Shown: in pieces, positions 3,134-25,071 of the stretch
Layout of the letters: each line of letters starts with the position of its first letter
How positions within the stretch are numbered: the stretch's first letter is position 1
From: Verrucomicrobiota bacterium
GTDB taxonomy: Bacteria; Verrucomicrobiota; Verrucomicrobiia; Limisphaerales; UBA11358
Direction of reading: 5' to 3'
Assembly: GCA_028873125.1 (NCBI GenBank)
Contig: JAGWMQ010000013.1
Span: forward strand, 1-48,882
DNA length: 48,882 nucleotides
Position numbers and translations under genes: made by a program
The notes under the pieces: generated by a model
What the model was told of the DNA's origin: nothing
What the model saw: only the letters and a program-made list of their open reading frames with translations
Databases searched by the model: none

Positions 3134-6100
3134 GTGTTTGATCGCGTGTCGCAAGCTCCCGCCGCACAATCCCTGGCGCGGCGCCTGGAGAATGGGGGGG
3201 TGTTGTCGTGCGTCGGCTTCGCCGCGCCCGCCCAGCCGTTTTTTGCCGCGTGGCTCCGGATGGCTTTCCCAAACCGCCCCATCGTCCTGGTCGCGCCGGA
3301 TTTGAAAGCGCAGGAGTCGTTTCAGCAGGACCTGGAAACCTGGATGGCGTTTGAGTCCGAAGTCCACAGTTCAAAGTGCGAAGCCCAGACCGCCCAACTT
3401 CCAGCTCCCAGCTCCCAACTCCTTTTCTATCCGGCCTGGGAAGTTTTGCCACACGAAGGCCGGTTGCCGCACGCCGATGTCATCAGCGACCGGCTTCAGA
3501 CGCTCGTCACCCTTTCTCAAGAACGCAAAGTTCAGGAGTCAAAGTCCAGGATTGTCGTCACCAGCGTCGTCGCTCTGCTGCAAAGGACTTTCGCGCCGGA
3601 GGATTTGAAAAACCGCACCCGGCGGCTCCACCGCGGCGACAAAATCGCCCCGCTGGATTTGATCGAATGGCTGGAAGCGCAGGGCTACGAGCCGGAAGGA
3701 CAAGTGACACAGAAAGGCGAACTGGCCCTCCGGGGCGGCATCGTGGACGTGTTCCCGCCGACCAGTCCCTGGCCAGCGCGCCTGGAATTCTTCGGCGATG
3801 AATTGGAATCGCTCCGCCAGTTCGATCCGCTCACGCAAATTTCGCGTCAGGAAATTTCCGAAATCACGATTCCGCCCGCCGGCGAACTGGGAATTTTAAT
3901 GAGGAATCCGAGGAGCGCAGCCGCCCCGGCTGCGGTTTTCGGCGCCTCGCCGAAAAACTCCACGCTGCTTGATTTTCTTCCGGGCGAGACTCTTTTCCTG
4001 CTTTGCGCCCCGGAACAAATCACTTTGCGCGCCGCTGAATACGCCGCGCCAATCCCCGCCGGCGATCCGTTTTTCATTTCCTGGCCGGATTGTCTGGCCG
4101 GGCTGAACCGGCGCGGATTCACGCGCGTTGAGTTGAACGACGACAGCCGCCAAACTCAAAATCGGTGGGTCGAGGCTCACGACGAGCCACTCGCTGACCA
4201 CGCGCCGGCAACGGCACGCGAGGACGTTGGCGTCACCGAATTGCGTTTCGATTCTTTGGAGGCCTACCGCCCGTTGGCCGAGCGCGCGCTGGAACCGCAG
4301 ATCGCCGAGGCGCAACGCCACGAATTTTTCCAGCAAATCCACCGCTGGTTGCGGCGGGCTTATGCGGTCCACATCTTCTGCAACAACGACGGCGAGCGGC
4401 AGCGCTTCGTGGAAATCTGGGCGGAACTCAACATAGGGCAGGCGTCCCGCCTGCTCGGCGGAGAGGAGAGCGAAATAAAATTTTCCGACGCCGATCCCGA
4501 TTCGCGCCATTCGGGCAGGCGAGACGCCTGCCCCACGTTACACCTCGGCACCCTGTCGCGCGGTTTCATTTGCGAGGCAGCCAAGCTGGTCGTTGTGACC
4601 GATGCGGAAATTTTTGGGCGTTACAAAATCCAGCGTCCGCGCCGGCTTAAATCGCCCCACGCGCCGGCGCTCCGCTCGGCGCTGGACATTGATTTCACCG
4701 AACTGGAGGAAGGCGATCTGGTCGTTCACCTGCAGCACGGCGTCGGAAAGTTTCTCGGCCTAAAGAACCTTCCAGCATCGAGCCGTTCCCCCAACTCCCA
4801 ACTCCCATCTACCAACTCCGGCACGGAGTGCCTTGTTATCGAATACGCGCCGCGCAACCCCGGCGACGAGCCGCCCAAGCTGTACGTGCCCGTCAGCGAG
4901 GCGCACCTGGTGAGCAAATACATCGGGGCGGGCAAGGCGCAGCCGCCGCTCAATACGCTCGGCGGCGCGCGCTGGCGCAGGGCGAAGGAACAGGCCGAGC
5001 GCGCCGTGCGCGACCTGGCCGCCGAATTGCTGCAGATCCAGGCCGCGCGCGAATCACAACCCGGCCACGCCTTCAAACCCGACGCCCCGTGGCAGCGCGA
5101 GTTTGAGAGCGCGTTCATCTACGAGGAAACGCCCGACCAGCGCCGCGCCATCGAGGAAGCCAAGTGCGACATGGAAAAGCCCAAGCCGATGGACCGCCTG
5201 ATCTGCGGCGACGTGGGGTTCGGCAAGACCGAAGTGGCCATCCGCGCCGCCTTCAAGGCGGTGATGGACGGCAGGCAGGTCGCCGTGCTGGTGCCGACGA
5301 CGGTGCTGGCCCAGCAGCATTTCAACACCTTCCGCGACCGCATGGCCGATTATCCGGTCCGCATCGAATTGCTCTCGCGTTTCCGCACGCGCCGCCAGCA
5401 AGAGCGCGTCGTGAGGGATTTGGCCAACGGCGCGGTGGACATCGTCATCGGCACGCACCGGCTGATACAAAGCGACATTGTCTTCAAAGACCTTGGCCTG
5501 GCGGTCATTGACGAGGAGCAGCGGTTCGGCGTGTTGGACAAGGAGAAATTCAAGCGCCTGCGCACACTGGTGGATGTGCTCACCCTCAGCGCCACGCCGA
5601 TTCCGCGCACGCTTTACTTGGCGTTGACCGGGGCGCGCGACATGAGCACCATCCAGACGCCGCCGCATGACCGCCTGCCGGTGGAAACCATCATCAGCCA
5701 GTACGACGAGCGGGTCATCCGCGACGCCATCCAACGCGAACTGAACCGTGGCGGCCAGGTTTTTTTCCTGCACAACCGCGTCATGACCATTGAGGCGATG
5801 GCCGACCGCTTGAAGAAACTCCTGCCGGGCGCGCGCATCGTCGTCGGTCACGGGCAGATGGATTCCGACGACCTGGAGGAGGTGATGACGAAATTCGTCA
5901 ATGGCGAGGCGGATGTGTTGTTGTCCACGACGATCATCGAAAGCGGGTTGGACATTCCGAACGCGAATACGATCGTCATTGACCGCGCCGACCGTTTCGG
6001 CTTGAGCGACTTGTACCAACTGCGCGGACGCGTCGGGCGTTACAAGCATCAGGCTTACGCCTATCTGCTGCTGCCGCGCCACGCCAGCCTGCTCACCGAC

Positions 6101-21058: not shown

Positions 21059-22714
21059 TCACGACCGGTTCAGCGCGCTCAAGACCGCGCGCACGGAGGC
21101 CAGTTCAATGTTGGTGTCCACGCCCGCGCCCCAGCGCGTCTTGCCGTCGGCATGCCGGACTTGGATATAGGCAATGGCCGCCGCTTCCTCGCCGCTGCTC
21201 AGGGCGTGTTCGCTGTAAGCGGCGATCTCAAATCGCGGCACTCCGACCCTGCCGAAACCATGGACCAACGCGGCGAGCGGGCCGTTGCCTTCGCCGGCAA
21301 GTTCCATCACCTGGCCATCGTGGAGCAGTTTCGCGCGGCATCGGACAACGCCGTTCCTGCTTTCTGTCCGGAACGACTGGAGTTGCCAGGGCGAGGCGCG
21401 CTCGATGTATTCGCGCCAGAACATCTGCTTGAGTTCGGCGCCGCTGACCTCGCGGCCGAGCCGGTCCACCTCGTCGTTCGCAATCGGACCGAACTCGCGT
21501 TGCAGGTCCTTGGGCAGTTCGATGCCGAACTCGCTCTCCAGCAGATAGGCCACGCCGCCCTTGCCGGACTGCGAATTGACGCGGATGACTTCGCGGTACT
21601 CCCGTCCGATGTCCGCCGGGTCAATCGTCAGATAGGGCACGTCCCAACATTCGCGCCCGTTCTCCTTCCATTCGTTCAGGCCCTTGCGAATGGCGTCCTG
21701 GTGCGAACCGCTGAACGCGGTGAACACCAGTTCGCCGGCGTAAGGCTGGCGCGGCGGCACGGTCATGCCCGTGCATCGCTCGTAGATCTCGATGATCGAA
21801 TTGAGATTCGCGAAATCCAGTTTCGGATCAATCCCGTGTTGGTAAAGATTCAAGGCCAGCGTCACGATGTCCAGGTTGCCCGTGCGCTCGCCGTTGCCAA
21901 AGAGCGTGCCCTCCACCCGCTCCGCGCCCGCGAGCAGGCCCAATTCCGTGGCCGCCACGCCGGTGCAACGGTCGTTGTGGGTGTGCAGACTGACGATGAG
22001 CGAGTCGCGATTCCTGATGTTCCGGCAGATCCATTCGATCTGGTCCGCATAAACGTTGGGCATGGCCACCTCGACCGTGTCCGGCAAATTCAAGATCATT
22101 TTGCGTTGCGGCGTGGGCTGCCACACGTCCATCACCGCCTCCGAAACTTCCCTGGCAAATTCCACCTCCGTGGCCGAAAAACTTTCCGGCGAATACTGGA
22201 GCATCACTTCCGTGCCTTTGAGCCGCGGCAGACGCTCCCGGATCCAGGTCGCGCCGCGCACGGCCACCTGGCTGATCTGCTCCTTGGACATGCCGAAGAC
22301 GACGCGGCGTTGCGCGGGCGAAGTGGAATTGTAGAGATGGATGACGGCCTTCCTGGCGCCGACGAGCGACTCGACGGTGCGCTCGATCAAGTCCTCGCGC
22401 GCCTGCACCAGCACCTGGAGCCACACGTCGTCCGGCGCGCGGCGTTCCTCGATCAGCCGGCGGTTGAAGGTGAACTCGGTGTTGGACGCGGAGGGAAAAC
22501 CGACCTCGATCTCCTTGAAGCCGATTTTGACGAGCGTCTGGAACAGTTCGAGTTTCTGCGACACGTTCATCGGCACGGCCAGTGCCTGGTTGCCGTCGCG
22601 CAAATCCACGCTGCACCAGATGGGCGCCCGGGTGAGGACGCGGCCGGGCCATTGCCGGTCCGGCAGGTTGACCGGCCGGAACGGACGGTATTTCTTCGAT
22701 GGATCCTTGAGCAT
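21059..22714 (-). CDS. leuA: 2-isopropylmalate synthase (type 2, fungal-like LeuA)
   Basis: Catalyses the first step of leucine synthesis, condensing acetyl-CoA with 2-oxoisovalerate. The 551-residue length and N-terminus (KYRPFRPVNLPDRQWP) match the type-2 LeuA class found in fungi and some bacteria. It has the metal/substrate Arg39-Asp40 in SVDLRDGNQ, SLHTHND (His244, His246), GTLFGNGERTGN, and a C-terminal LeuA allosteric domain (about 420-551) for leucine feedback inhibition. ATG 22714 (MLKDPSKKYRPF) is the start; the 36 codons upstream in frame belong to the regulatory leader. Transcription is probably controlled by the leucine-rich leader peptide at 22812-22898 and the terminator at 22751-22790. 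Downstream lies the DUF1573/lepB pair, 71 nt away. Confidence 0.95.
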   Translation of the reverse strand: MLKDPSKKYRPFRPVNLPDRQWPGRVLTRAPIWCSVDLRDGNQALAVPMNVSQKLELFQTLVKIGFKEIEVGFPSASNTEFTFNRRLIEERRAPDDVWLQVLVQAREDLIERTVESLVGARKAVIHLYNSTSPAQRRVVFGMSKEQISQVAVRGATWIRERLPRLKGTEVMLQYSPESFSATEVEFAREVSEAVMDVWQPTPQRKMILNLPDTVEVAMPNVYADQIEWICRNIRNRDSLIVSLHTHNDRCTGVAATELGLLAGAERVEGTLFGNGERTGNLDIVTLALNLYQHGIDPKLDFANLNSIIEIYERCTGMTVPPRQPYAGELVFTAFSGSHQDAIRKGLNEWKENGRECWDVPYLTIDPADIGREYREVIRVNSQSGKGGVAYLLESEFGIELPKDLQREFGPIANDEVDRLGREVSGAELKQMFWREYIERASPWQLQSFRTESRNGVVRCRAKLLHDGQVMELAGEGNGPLAALVHGFGRVGVPRFEIAAYSEHALSSGEEAAAIAYIQVRHADGKTRWGAGVDTNIELASVRAVLSALNRS

Positions 22715-22750
22715 GTTGACTTTCAGTTGTGGCAGTGGCGCTTCTGTTTG

Positions 22751-22790
22751 GCAAAACAAAAACCCCACCGCCGGTTGCGACGATGGGGTT
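22751..22790 (-). terminator. Attenuator terminator of leuA
   Basis: On the minus strand a 12-bp stem (arms 22779-22790 and 22761-22772, two G-U pairs, loop GCAACC) is followed by a T-rich run at 22751-22760 (tttgttttgc). It lies between the leader peptide and leuA. Its 5' arm overlaps the segment 22782-22791, which can instead pair at 9 of 10 positions with 22815-22824, the end of the leader-peptide coding region. Terminator and antiterminator are therefore mutually exclusive. Confidence 0.8.
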
Positions 22791-22811
22791 CGATAAACTC
22801 TTGAAACGCAA

Positions 22812-22898
22812 TCAGAACCCAACCGCCGCGCCGCGCAGCAGCAGCAGCGCGTTCAGCAGCAGGCCCAGGTTCAAATTACGATTCACTATGCCGAACAT
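22812..22898 (-). CDS. leuA leader peptide (28 aa, nine Leu codons)
   Basis: The open frame ATG 22898-22896 to TGA 22814-22812 encodes 28 residues including NLNLGLLLNALLLLRG: leucines at positions 9, 11, 13-15 and 18-21, eight CTG and one TTG. It lies directly before the attenuator terminator and 98 nt before leuA. This is the arrangement of classical leucine leader peptides such as LeuL of enterobacteria. When leucyl-tRNA is scarce, the ribosome stalls on codons 13-21 and frees 22815-22824 to form the antiterminator. When it is abundant, the ribosome reaches the stop and covers that segment. No clear Shine-Dalgarno is visible. It is too short for automatic gene callers. Confidence 0.8.
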   Translation of the reverse strand: MFGIVNRNLNLGLLLNALLLLRGAAVGF

Positions 22899-23232
22899 AT
22901 CAAGCCGGACCCGGTGAGTCAAATTGATTTTCCGTTTTGCACCACCGTTCGTGTTGACTCCGGATAAATGAAGAGCCGCCAGGCTTGGCAACTTGCGAAC
23001 GCTCTGAGCGGTTCAAAAACCAGGCCGTCCCGCCCGCCCCCAAAATGGGCTATGGCAAAGGCGGCAGGGACCGTCTATTCTCCGGTCCCGTCACCGTCGG
23101 AACATTATGAGACATCGTCGCCTTTTGTCCGCTCCTTTCAAAGGTTGCAAACCCGTTGCTTGGAGGAATGATCGTCGCCGTGCCGCGCAGACTTGAACAA
23201 ACCATCGGGATTGCGGAAAATCCGGCCACAAC
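22899..23232. promoter_or_regulatory. Divergent regulatory region between leuA and the MFS transporter
   Basis: No gene is visible. On the minus strand a TTGCCA near 22990 followed 17 nt later by TTTATC could be a weak promoter for the leu leader. I see no convincing promoter for the plus-strand transporter. Confidence 0.35.
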
Positions 23233-25071
23233 ATGAACGACCACAGCGCTGCCCAACCCGTCGCCAAAGTCGGTTACAATCGCTTTCTTCTGCTCGTCGC
23301 CGGGCTGGGCGGACTGCTCTACGGCGTGGACGTGGGGATCATTTCCGGCGCGCTGCCTTACCTGCAGGCGACCTTCACGCTGCCCGACGGCAGCCTGTTG
23401 AACTCCGGGCAAATTTCGCTCGTCGTCGCGGCGGTTTTGCTGGGCACCATCATTTCCACGCTGTTTGCCGGGGCGCTGGCGGATTTGTTCGGGCGCAAAG
23501 CTATGATGACCGCCAGCGGGCTCCTCTTTGTGGTCAGCGTTCCGATGATTGCGCTGGCGCATCAGTATTGGCCGCTGGTGTTCGGGCGCATTTTGCAAGG
23601 CATCAGCGGCGGACTGATCGGCGTGGTGGCGCCGCTGTATCTGGCCGAATGTCTCCGCGCCTCCAATCGCGGCAAGGGCACGGGAGTTTTTCAATGGCTG
23701 CTGACGCTGGGCATCGTGGCGGCCACAATCATCGGTTATTATTTCAGCATCCGGGTGGATGAGGTGGCCAAACTCGGCAATGCCTCAAAACTGTTCGCGT
23801 TCGAGGACGTTGCCTGGCGCGGCATTTTCTGGGTGTCGCTGCCGCCGGGAATCCTGTTTGTCATCGGCAGCCTTTTTGTGGCCGAATCGCCCCGCTGGCT
23901 GTTTCGACGCGGGAAAAAGGACGCCGCGCGCGCCGCGCTCCTGCGCTCGCGCTCCGAGACCCAGGCGGAAATGGAATTGAAGGAAATGGAGGAAATCGTC
24001 GCCGCGGAAAAAAGCAGGGTTTCCGCCACCGGCGAGCAAATCCGCGAATCGCTGCTCCGCCGCAAATATGTCATTCCCTTTCTCCTGGCCTGCGTCATTC
24101 TGGCGTGCAACCAGGCCACCGGCGTCAACTCCGTCATCGGCTACAACACCACGACCCTGATTCAAGCCGGTCTCGGCGACGAGGCGGCGCACTTTGGCAC
24201 GGTCGTTTTCACCATCGTCAATTTCCTGATCACCATCATCGCCGTGGTCCTGGTGGACCGCAAAGGCCGGAAGTTCCTGCTGTCGCTGGGCACCGGCGGC
24301 GTGGTCGTTTCGATGATCTGTATCGGGCTGGTGTTTCATCGAACGGAAAAACTGCGCGTGAACGTGAAGGACGCCGTGCAGTCCATGGTTACCACCAATC
24401 AAACGCTCACGCTCGCGTTCAACCGACACACCGCGACGAATCTCCTGGCCGCCTTGCCGCTTCAACGCTTCAACGCCTCCACGCCCGTTTCGCTGGTCGT
24501 CATCTATTCATACGGAGATTTTCACGCCGCAACGGCGGCGGTGCGCTCGGATGACCCGTCGGCCAAGCCGATCGAACTCTCGCGCGAAAATTGCGTTCCG
24601 GGAAACAAAGTCGTCGCCTTTTTCAAAAATCCATTCGCCAACCTGGAGGCCGCGCGCGTGGCGCCGCTGAAAATTGACGCCGCGCTCGTCACCCCCATCC
24701 AGGATGCGCGCAACGGCTGGCTCACCGCCGTTCTTCTCTACATTTACATGGCGTTTTTCGCCGTGGGACCGGGCGTGGTCGTCTGGCTGGCGTTGTCCGA
24801 ACTCATGCCCACGCGCATCCGCTCCAACGGCATGAGCATCGCGCTGGTGATCAACCAGGCCGTCTCGACGGCCATCGCCGCCATCTTCCTGCCCACGGTC
24901 GGCAAGTACGGCTACGCCACGATGTTCTTCTTCTTCGCCGGCTGCACGGTGATTTATTTCATCACCGCGACCTTTTTCCTGCCGGAAACCAAGGGAAAAA
25001 CGCTGGAAGAAATCGAGGAATACTTTGAAGGCGGGGAGTTCCGTTCCCACGCTGAAACGCCAAAACGCTGA
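23233..25071 (+). CDS. MFS sugar porter with a large extracytoplasmic insertion
   Basis: A 612-residue major-facilitator transporter of the sugar porter family. TM1 contains LLVAGLGGLLYGVDVGIISGALPYL. The family motifs DLFGRKAMM, the RILQGISGGLIGVVAPLYLAE helix, SPRWLF and the C-terminal PETKGKTLEEIEEYF are present. Sugar porters are normally 450-500 residues. The extra sequence here (about 130 residues, from RTEKLRVNVKDA to IQDARNG) lies between TM9 and TM10, so it would face the outside. It probably imports a hexose, perhaps N-acetylhexosamine released by the downstream glycosidases. The GH89 gene follows after 49 nt, suggesting one operon. Confidence 0.88.
   Translation: MNDHSAAQPVAKVGYNRFLLLVAGLGGLLYGVDVGIISGALPYLQATFTLPDGSLLNSGQISLVVAAVLLGTIISTLFAGALADLFGRKAMMTASGLLFVVSVPMIALAHQYWPLVFGRILQGISGGLIGVVAPLYLAECLRASNRGKGTGVFQWLLTLGIVAATIIGYYFSIRVDEVAKLGNASKLFAFEDVAWRGIFWVSLPPGILFVIGSLFVAESPRWLFRRGKKDAARAALLRSRSETQAEMELKEMEEIVAAEKSRVSATGEQIRESLLRRKYVIPFLLACVILACNQATGVNSVIGYNTTTLIQAGLGDEAAHFGTVVFTIVNFLITIIAVVLVDRKGRKFLLSLGTGGVVVSMICIGLVFHRTEKLRVNVKDAVQSMVTTNQTLTLAFNRHTATNLLAALPLQRFNASTPVSLVVIYSYGDFHAATAAVRSDDPSAKPIELSRENCVPGNKVVAFFKNPFANLEAARVAPLKIDAALVTPIQDARNGWLTAVLLYIYMAFFAVGPGVVVWLALSELMPTRIRSNGMSIALVINQAVSTAIAAIFLPTVGKYGYATMFFFFAGCTVIYFITATFFLPETKGKTLEEIEEYFEGGEFRSHAETPKR

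Follow-up and report, generated by a model that had tools for sequence, protein, structure and literature searches.

A predicted leucine attenuator with a probably leaderless leader peptide upstream of leuA in an order of Verrucomicrobiota

In the window, that is, the whole stretch of 48,882 nucleotides from a Verrucomicrobiota bacterium that was analysed here, a short open reading frame (ORF) rich in Leu codons precedes leuA on the minus strand. Does this arrangement represent a leucine attenuator and, if so, where does its leader peptide start? We consider it, with a probability of about 0.88, to be a ribosome-mediated (classical) attenuator of leuA whose leader peptide would be translated from a leaderless mRNA. 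The anatomy of the locus, its conservation, and its covariation were determined computationally, and from these we infer the start site, the stalling, and the response to leucine. The features of the locus are as follows.

22917..22922, minus strand: -35 element TTGACT, which together with the -10 element has 9 of 12 consensus matches and a spacer of 17
22894..22899, minus strand: -10 element TATGTT, from promoter scoring, containing the ATG from which the peptide was formerly read
22812..22886, minus strand: leader ORF of 24 codons, VNRNLNLGLLLNALLLLRGAAVGF, plus TGA (22814-22812), with nine Leu codons; its GTG start (22886) is placed by promoter position and conservation
22868..22872, minus strand: segment 1, GAACC, putative core of the protector helix formed with segment 2 (pairing, folding, and own-versus-swapped duplexes)
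22815..22827, minus strand: segment 2, GGCGGTTGGGTTC, the end of the leader ORF, predicted alternative partner of segments 1 and 3
22779..22791, minus strand: segment 3, GAACCCCATCGTC, predicted 5' arm of the terminator and partner in the antiterminator
22760..22791, minus strand: intrinsic terminator of 14 pairs with a loop of 4, followed by TTGTTTTG (folding and covariation)
21059..22714, minus strand: leuA, 2-isopropylmalate synthase (family-profile scores), the regulated gene in the proposed model

The initial annotation had identified the downstream gene as leuA, and it scores 813.9 bits against PRK03739 and 725.3 bits against leuA_yeast, above the cut-off in both cases. The ORF of 28 codons from ATG 22898 described there, with nine Leu codons including runs of three and four, is present, and so is a terminator with a T-run before leuA, although its length is 14 pairs and not 12 bp. 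The terminator folded at -23.3 kcal/mol (48-nt piece), as against -12.25 ± 2.72 in shuffles, none of 200 being as good. The pairing of 22824-22815 with 22791-22782 at 9 of 10 positions, within the 5' arm of the terminator, was reproduced, and can be lengthened to a helix of 12 pairs that includes a single mismatch (-19.2 kcal/mol). The supported gene upstream encodes a sugar-porter-like transporter (23233-25071) and is divergent from leuA; on this ground we rejected the terminator as that of an upstream gene. A minus-strand ORF of 214 amino acids at 23050-23694 lies antisense to the transporter. At the other end, the GTG start of an ORF of 307 amino acids with weak cytochrome c matches overlaps the stop codon of leuA (window 21059-21062); this ORF is possibly co-transcribed with leuA. 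A T-box or a known riboswitch was also rejected, as no Rfam family reached its threshold on 22400-23400 in a search with E up to 5. In a related locus, a sub-threshold match to the TPP riboswitch (L159:499-631, plus strand, 36.2 bits against a threshold of 54.3) lies beside the leuA leader.

We then considered how often such a combination is found. When defined as an ORF of 12-40 codons, with at least six Leu codons and at least 30% Leu, and a terminator beginning at most 45 nt away, it occurred at a single place in the window, where one ORF has three nested starts, and was absent from all 30 dinucleotide-Markov windows. An alignment of related loci, proposed in the initial annotation, bears the finding out: of 138 leuA loci from the order, 124 have a Leu ORF with a terminator by an automatic rule, and both stems covary (see below). 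Among the 14 other loci, the element was found by eye in five (L032, which is cut at the contig end, L139, L146, L169, and L186) and was absent by eye in six (L162, L177, L183, L185, L189, and L193); three were uncheckable (L015, masked apart from its terminator, and L117 and L160, at contig ends). The upstream regions came from the genus and the order, and leuA matches cut at the gene start (e.g., in G005, G016, G048, G074, and G216) were omitted. LeuA was found at E ≤ 1e-150 in 119 of the 244 genomes drawn from the order, and the conservation counts concern this LeuA-positive half. Tallied by hand, the element is present under 30 family labels within the order, some of which are represented by a single locus. 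The same rule applied to control loci of the genus gave 1 of 25 for trpE (from 30 trpE-like loci fetched) and 0 of 22 for hisG (from 23 fetched); no Trp- or His-rich leader with a terminator preceded these genes, and one chance ORF with a W pair, in L299, had no terminator.

Before the pairing analysis, five of the 124 leaders were dropped (L116, L133, L143, and L178, with no start 5-10 bases after the -10 element, and L218, a duplicate of L217). In the remaining 119, Leu codons averaged 6.2 per leader in frame, versus 1.2 and 0.5 in the two other frames; they accounted for 29% of the sense codons. In one column, 87 of 118 leaders have Leu, and all six of its codons are represented; Leu positions thus persist through synonymous change, with several codons each. 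CTG repeats presumably arise easily in GC-rich DNA; however, the notion of a chance Leu-rich frame next to an ordinary terminator is contradicted by the conservation, the Markov windows, and the trpE and hisG controls. The frame-specific Leu codons and the position of the terminator between the promoter and leuA also speak against it. We rejected this notion, which has hardly any chance at all of being right.

The initial annotation had placed the peptide start at ATG 22898. As this codon is inside the -10 element (22899-22894) and the spacing of the start is conserved, GTG 22886 is most likely the start codon, giving a peptide of 24 codons on an apparently leaderless mRNA. In each of the 124 leaders, the -10 element was taken as the best-scoring site of a fixed interval upstream of the stop codon, blind to the start codon. 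The first in-frame start lay 6-9 bases past it in 112 leaders (6 bases in 71, 7 in 29, 8 in six, and 9 in six); the distance differed in 10 others, and two had no start. Transcription usually starts about 7 bases downstream of the -10 element. The start codon is GTG in 97 and ATG in 22 of the 119 leaders. Summed over positions, TTGAC begins 34-38 bases before the start in 99 of the 119, and in 77 it is at -36 or -35 (chance, about 0.12 per position); 16 leaders have no TTGAC in the 80 upstream bases. Because the starts were picked 5-10 bases after the -10 element, this -35 peak is not fully independent of the -10 result. Only 68% of leaders had a promoter score above the 95th percentile of shuffles. 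Judged from these sequence patterns, the leader mRNA is probably leaderless.

The same attenuator might instead be carried on an mRNA with a leader of its own, transcribed from a promoter further upstream and encoding the 28-residue peptide from ATG 22898. This ATG is in frame, another promoter-like site is found at 23131-23104, and nine of the 119 leaders have an in-frame ATG at most 30 nt upstream of the assumed start. However, the other 110 have no such ATG, that of the window sits in the -10 element, and the position of TTGAC in most leaders points to the nearer promoter. Moreover, an SD-like (Shine-Dalgarno-like) tetramer precedes only seven of the 119 leaders, in line with the scarcity of such sites suspected in the initial annotation. 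A promoter further upstream thus appears quite unlikely, and we retain the GTG start on a probably leaderless mRNA.

Covariation was examined in an alignment (A1) of 117 of the 119 leaders, without L198 and L204, and duplex energies were calculated for all 119; the shuffle and swap controls leave the relatedness of the leaders in. In the terminator, 90.6% of cells are paired (n = 117). Its 62 cells with two-sided change and its covariation score of 0.201 were each unmatched in 500 shuffles; 7 of its 14 pairs show two-sided change (reached by 3 of 500 shuffles), and its number of pair types was reached by 10 of 500. In the antiterminator, only 73.6% of cells are paired, and the internal fourth pair forms in 6 of 117 leaders. 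Its 50 cells with two-sided change and its score of 0.174 were again unmatched in 500 shuffles, and two-sided change in 7 of its 10 pairs was reached by 3; its number of pair types was reached by 147. The true register exceeded all six slides on both paired cells and covariation score. The duplex of segments 2 and 3 had an energy of -18.57 with each leader's own partner versus -17.18 with swapped partners, and that of segments 1 and 2 had -15.88 versus -14.53, both beyond all 2000 permutations. A leader's own pairing was better than swaps in 86 (2:3) and 89 (1:2) of the 119; L204 is nearly without an antiterminator (-4.1). The terminator/antiterminator switch of the initial annotation is thus supported by covariation in both stems and by own pairings that beat swapped ones on average. 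By prediction and covariation, the antiterminator would exclude the terminator, and the protector would exclude the antiterminator.

In the proposed mechanism, transcription would start at about 22887-22886, the leader mRNA would begin at or beside the GTG start codon, and a ribosome would load onto it without a Shine-Dalgarno site. When leucyl-tRNA is scarce, the ribosome would stall in the Leu codons, on or just past segment 1, and would block the 1:2 pairing; segment 2, being free, would pair with segment 3, the terminator would come too late, and leuA would be transcribed. When leucine is plentiful, the ribosome would run on to the stop codon, which directly follows segment 2, and mask this segment; segment 3 would then pair with segment 4, and transcription would end before leuA. 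If there is no translation, 1:2 and 3:4 would form, and transcription would also end.

These states were folded with assumed bases covered by the ribosome, the footprint size on mRNA being taken from general knowledge. Without a ribosome, the fold consisted of 1:2 plus 3:4. The piece of nt 54-113 (ribosome in the Leu run, 3' arm of the terminator not yet made) gave the 2:3 hairpin at -25.0 kcal/mol, and that of nt 88-134 (ribosome at the stop codon) gave the terminator alone at -23.3. A ribosome at codon 17 would already mask the start of segment 2, leaving -10.4. When nt 54-134 were all present (nt 1-53 covered), the terminator won; thus, the switch would have to operate kinetically, like that of known attenuators.

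The phylum was searched with a covariance model (R1). Matches at E ≤ 0.01 were found in 54 of 387 genomes, two of them from this genus, with one place in the genome of the window itself. The 14 R1 loci inspected were mostly plain terminators or coding DNA; L227 and L245 are upstream of leuA-like genes. R1 also found Val- or Leu-rich leaders with terminators in other Verrucomicrobiota (L244 and L233), where the downstream genes are ilvB-like, judging from the N-termini of their products. At 40 leuA loci from other orders of the class, the best short upstream ORF contained LRL in 14, under a rule that favoured LRL; 4 of the 40 satisfied the Leu-plus-terminator rule, and on inspection by eye L369 was the only possible attenuator. 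Among loci L087-L113, mostly from other groups, 10 of 27 passed, some of them weak; one of the 10, L095, is a subdivision 3 record. Leu-containing short ORFs and terminators precede leuA in L087, L098, L104, L108, L109, and L113, which come from records titled Spirochaetaceae, Desulfocapsaceae, Treponema, and Pirellula.

Of 77 named loci, 25 (L059-L064, L066-L069, L076, L078-L085, L088, L090, L101-L103, and L110) carry a conserved stretch, C(T/C)NCGACTTA, at most 330 nt upstream of leuA; it encodes LRL(T/S) in the short ORFs inspected. The carriers are sister families and a few records titled Dongia, Pelagibius, and Nitrospirae; none is from this order, as judged by titles and upstream sequences. 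Of the 25, one satisfied the Leu-plus-terminator rule, by virtue of an unrelated ORF. In Rfam, the leaders of L079, L086, L061, L090, L102, and L103 gave no match that reached the threshold.

Alternatively, the leader peptide might act chiefly on the translation of leuA or via Rho, the hairpin being secondary. The short Leu or LRL ORFs before leuA in other orders mostly have no terminator, and such a mode has been considered for leaders without terminators, as in the actinobacterial LEU element. In this order, however, the T-run terminator is nearly universal and covaries, and an SD-like tetramer precedes leuA itself at only 5 of 119 loci, which fits an SD-poor lineage; a stem that sequesters the SD site would thus mostly have no target. 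We regard action mainly on translation or through Rho as very unlikely here and favour transcription attenuation at the terminator.

A similar build was found upstream of ilvB. For this gene, 22 of 27 fetched loci of the genus were used, paralogues and cut matches being left out; 20 of the 22 have a Val-rich ORF with an ATG start, and 17 of these 20 have an automatically called terminator. In a promoter search confined to 14 bases before the ATG, 18 of the 20 listed promoters had TTGAC, with the ATG 7-10 bases past the -10 element. The genome of the window (G000) has such a leader, MLKNVSQAANLLVVVVGDDAVGAC, on contig C204 (L253, about 3410-3540, minus strand), and 19 further leaders of the genus are among L252-L273, mostly with a terminator and an abutting promoter. 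The ilvB leader is probably a second leaderless attenuator, with a build like that of leuA. We tentatively suggest, at somewhat less than even odds, that the synthesis of branched-chain amino acids in the order runs on inherited leaderless attenuators (Leu-rich for leuA and Val-rich for ilvB), and that an older, widespread leuA leader with an LRL core (CTNCGACTTA) acquired the terminator switch in this order; in the sister groups this leader would regulate otherwise.

If our reading is correct, control of leucine synthesis by leader-peptide attenuation extends to a phylum in which we found no description of it, and to a lineage with few SD-like sites among its leaders and leuA genes. On a leaderless leader, transcription start and ribosome loading would be almost one event, a clean setting for studying the coupling of leaderless translation to transcription. 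In addition, 129 leuA loci (124 automatic and five by eye) receive an annotation that can be tested.

In the enteric leu attenuator (leuL), a leader peptide with a Leu run, segments 1-4, and an intrinsic terminator precede a leu gene. The same Leu-run peptide, segments, terminator, and downstream leu gene are found here, with the differences that the leader is probably leaderless, starts with GTG, and precedes a leuA_yeast-type gene. The Rfam family RF00512 (Leu_leader) matched the window at 15.3 bits (E 3.5; threshold 50), no better than chance. When scanned permissively, 3 of 26 relatives gave sub-threshold full-length matches (L206, 34.9 bits, E 0.00043; L121, 21.6; L129, 20.9). As the ilvB leader of the same genome matches Thr_leader, Trp_leader, and Leu_leader alike and weakly, the likeness may reflect shared architecture and not descent, and we make no claim of descent from the enteric leu leader.

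No leu attenuator of Verrucomicrobiota turned up in our literature searches, although a 2010 comparative study (Lopatovskaya and others) may hold more. The phylum is unnamed in the excerpted main text of Naville and Gautheret 2010 (PMC2965389), and likewise in excerpts of PMC8632094 and PMC11109978. A passage of PMC10783764 counts some Verrucomicrobiota as SD-scarce, and an excerpt of PMC10272879 describes the ilvB-OMG motif of various phyla with probable upstream ORFs. In the actinobacterial LEU element, a leader ORF with Leu codons also lies before leuA; according to an excerpt of PMC1262725, that element has a pseudoknot, a base stem on the Shine-Dalgarno box of leuA, and no terminator, and classical attenuation was thought unlikely there. 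As so few leuA genes here have an SD-like site, such a base stem would have no partner. A Leu-rich attenuator peptide is reported for the branched-chain amino acid genes of Staphylococcus aureus, a member of Firmicutes, in a passage of PMC5794164, and is likened to ours by that description only. The ilvBNC attenuator of Corynebacterium glutamicum resembles our proposal in its architecture: in the part of PMC11857589 consulted, the start codon of its leader peptide is one nucleotide from +1, and there is a terminator/antiterminator switch. It differs in belonging to Actinobacteria, to an ilv operon, and to a peptide with Ile, Val, and Leu codons. We regard the leuA leader as a well-supported attenuator of a known type; its notable features are its order-wide distribution and its probably leaderless mRNA.
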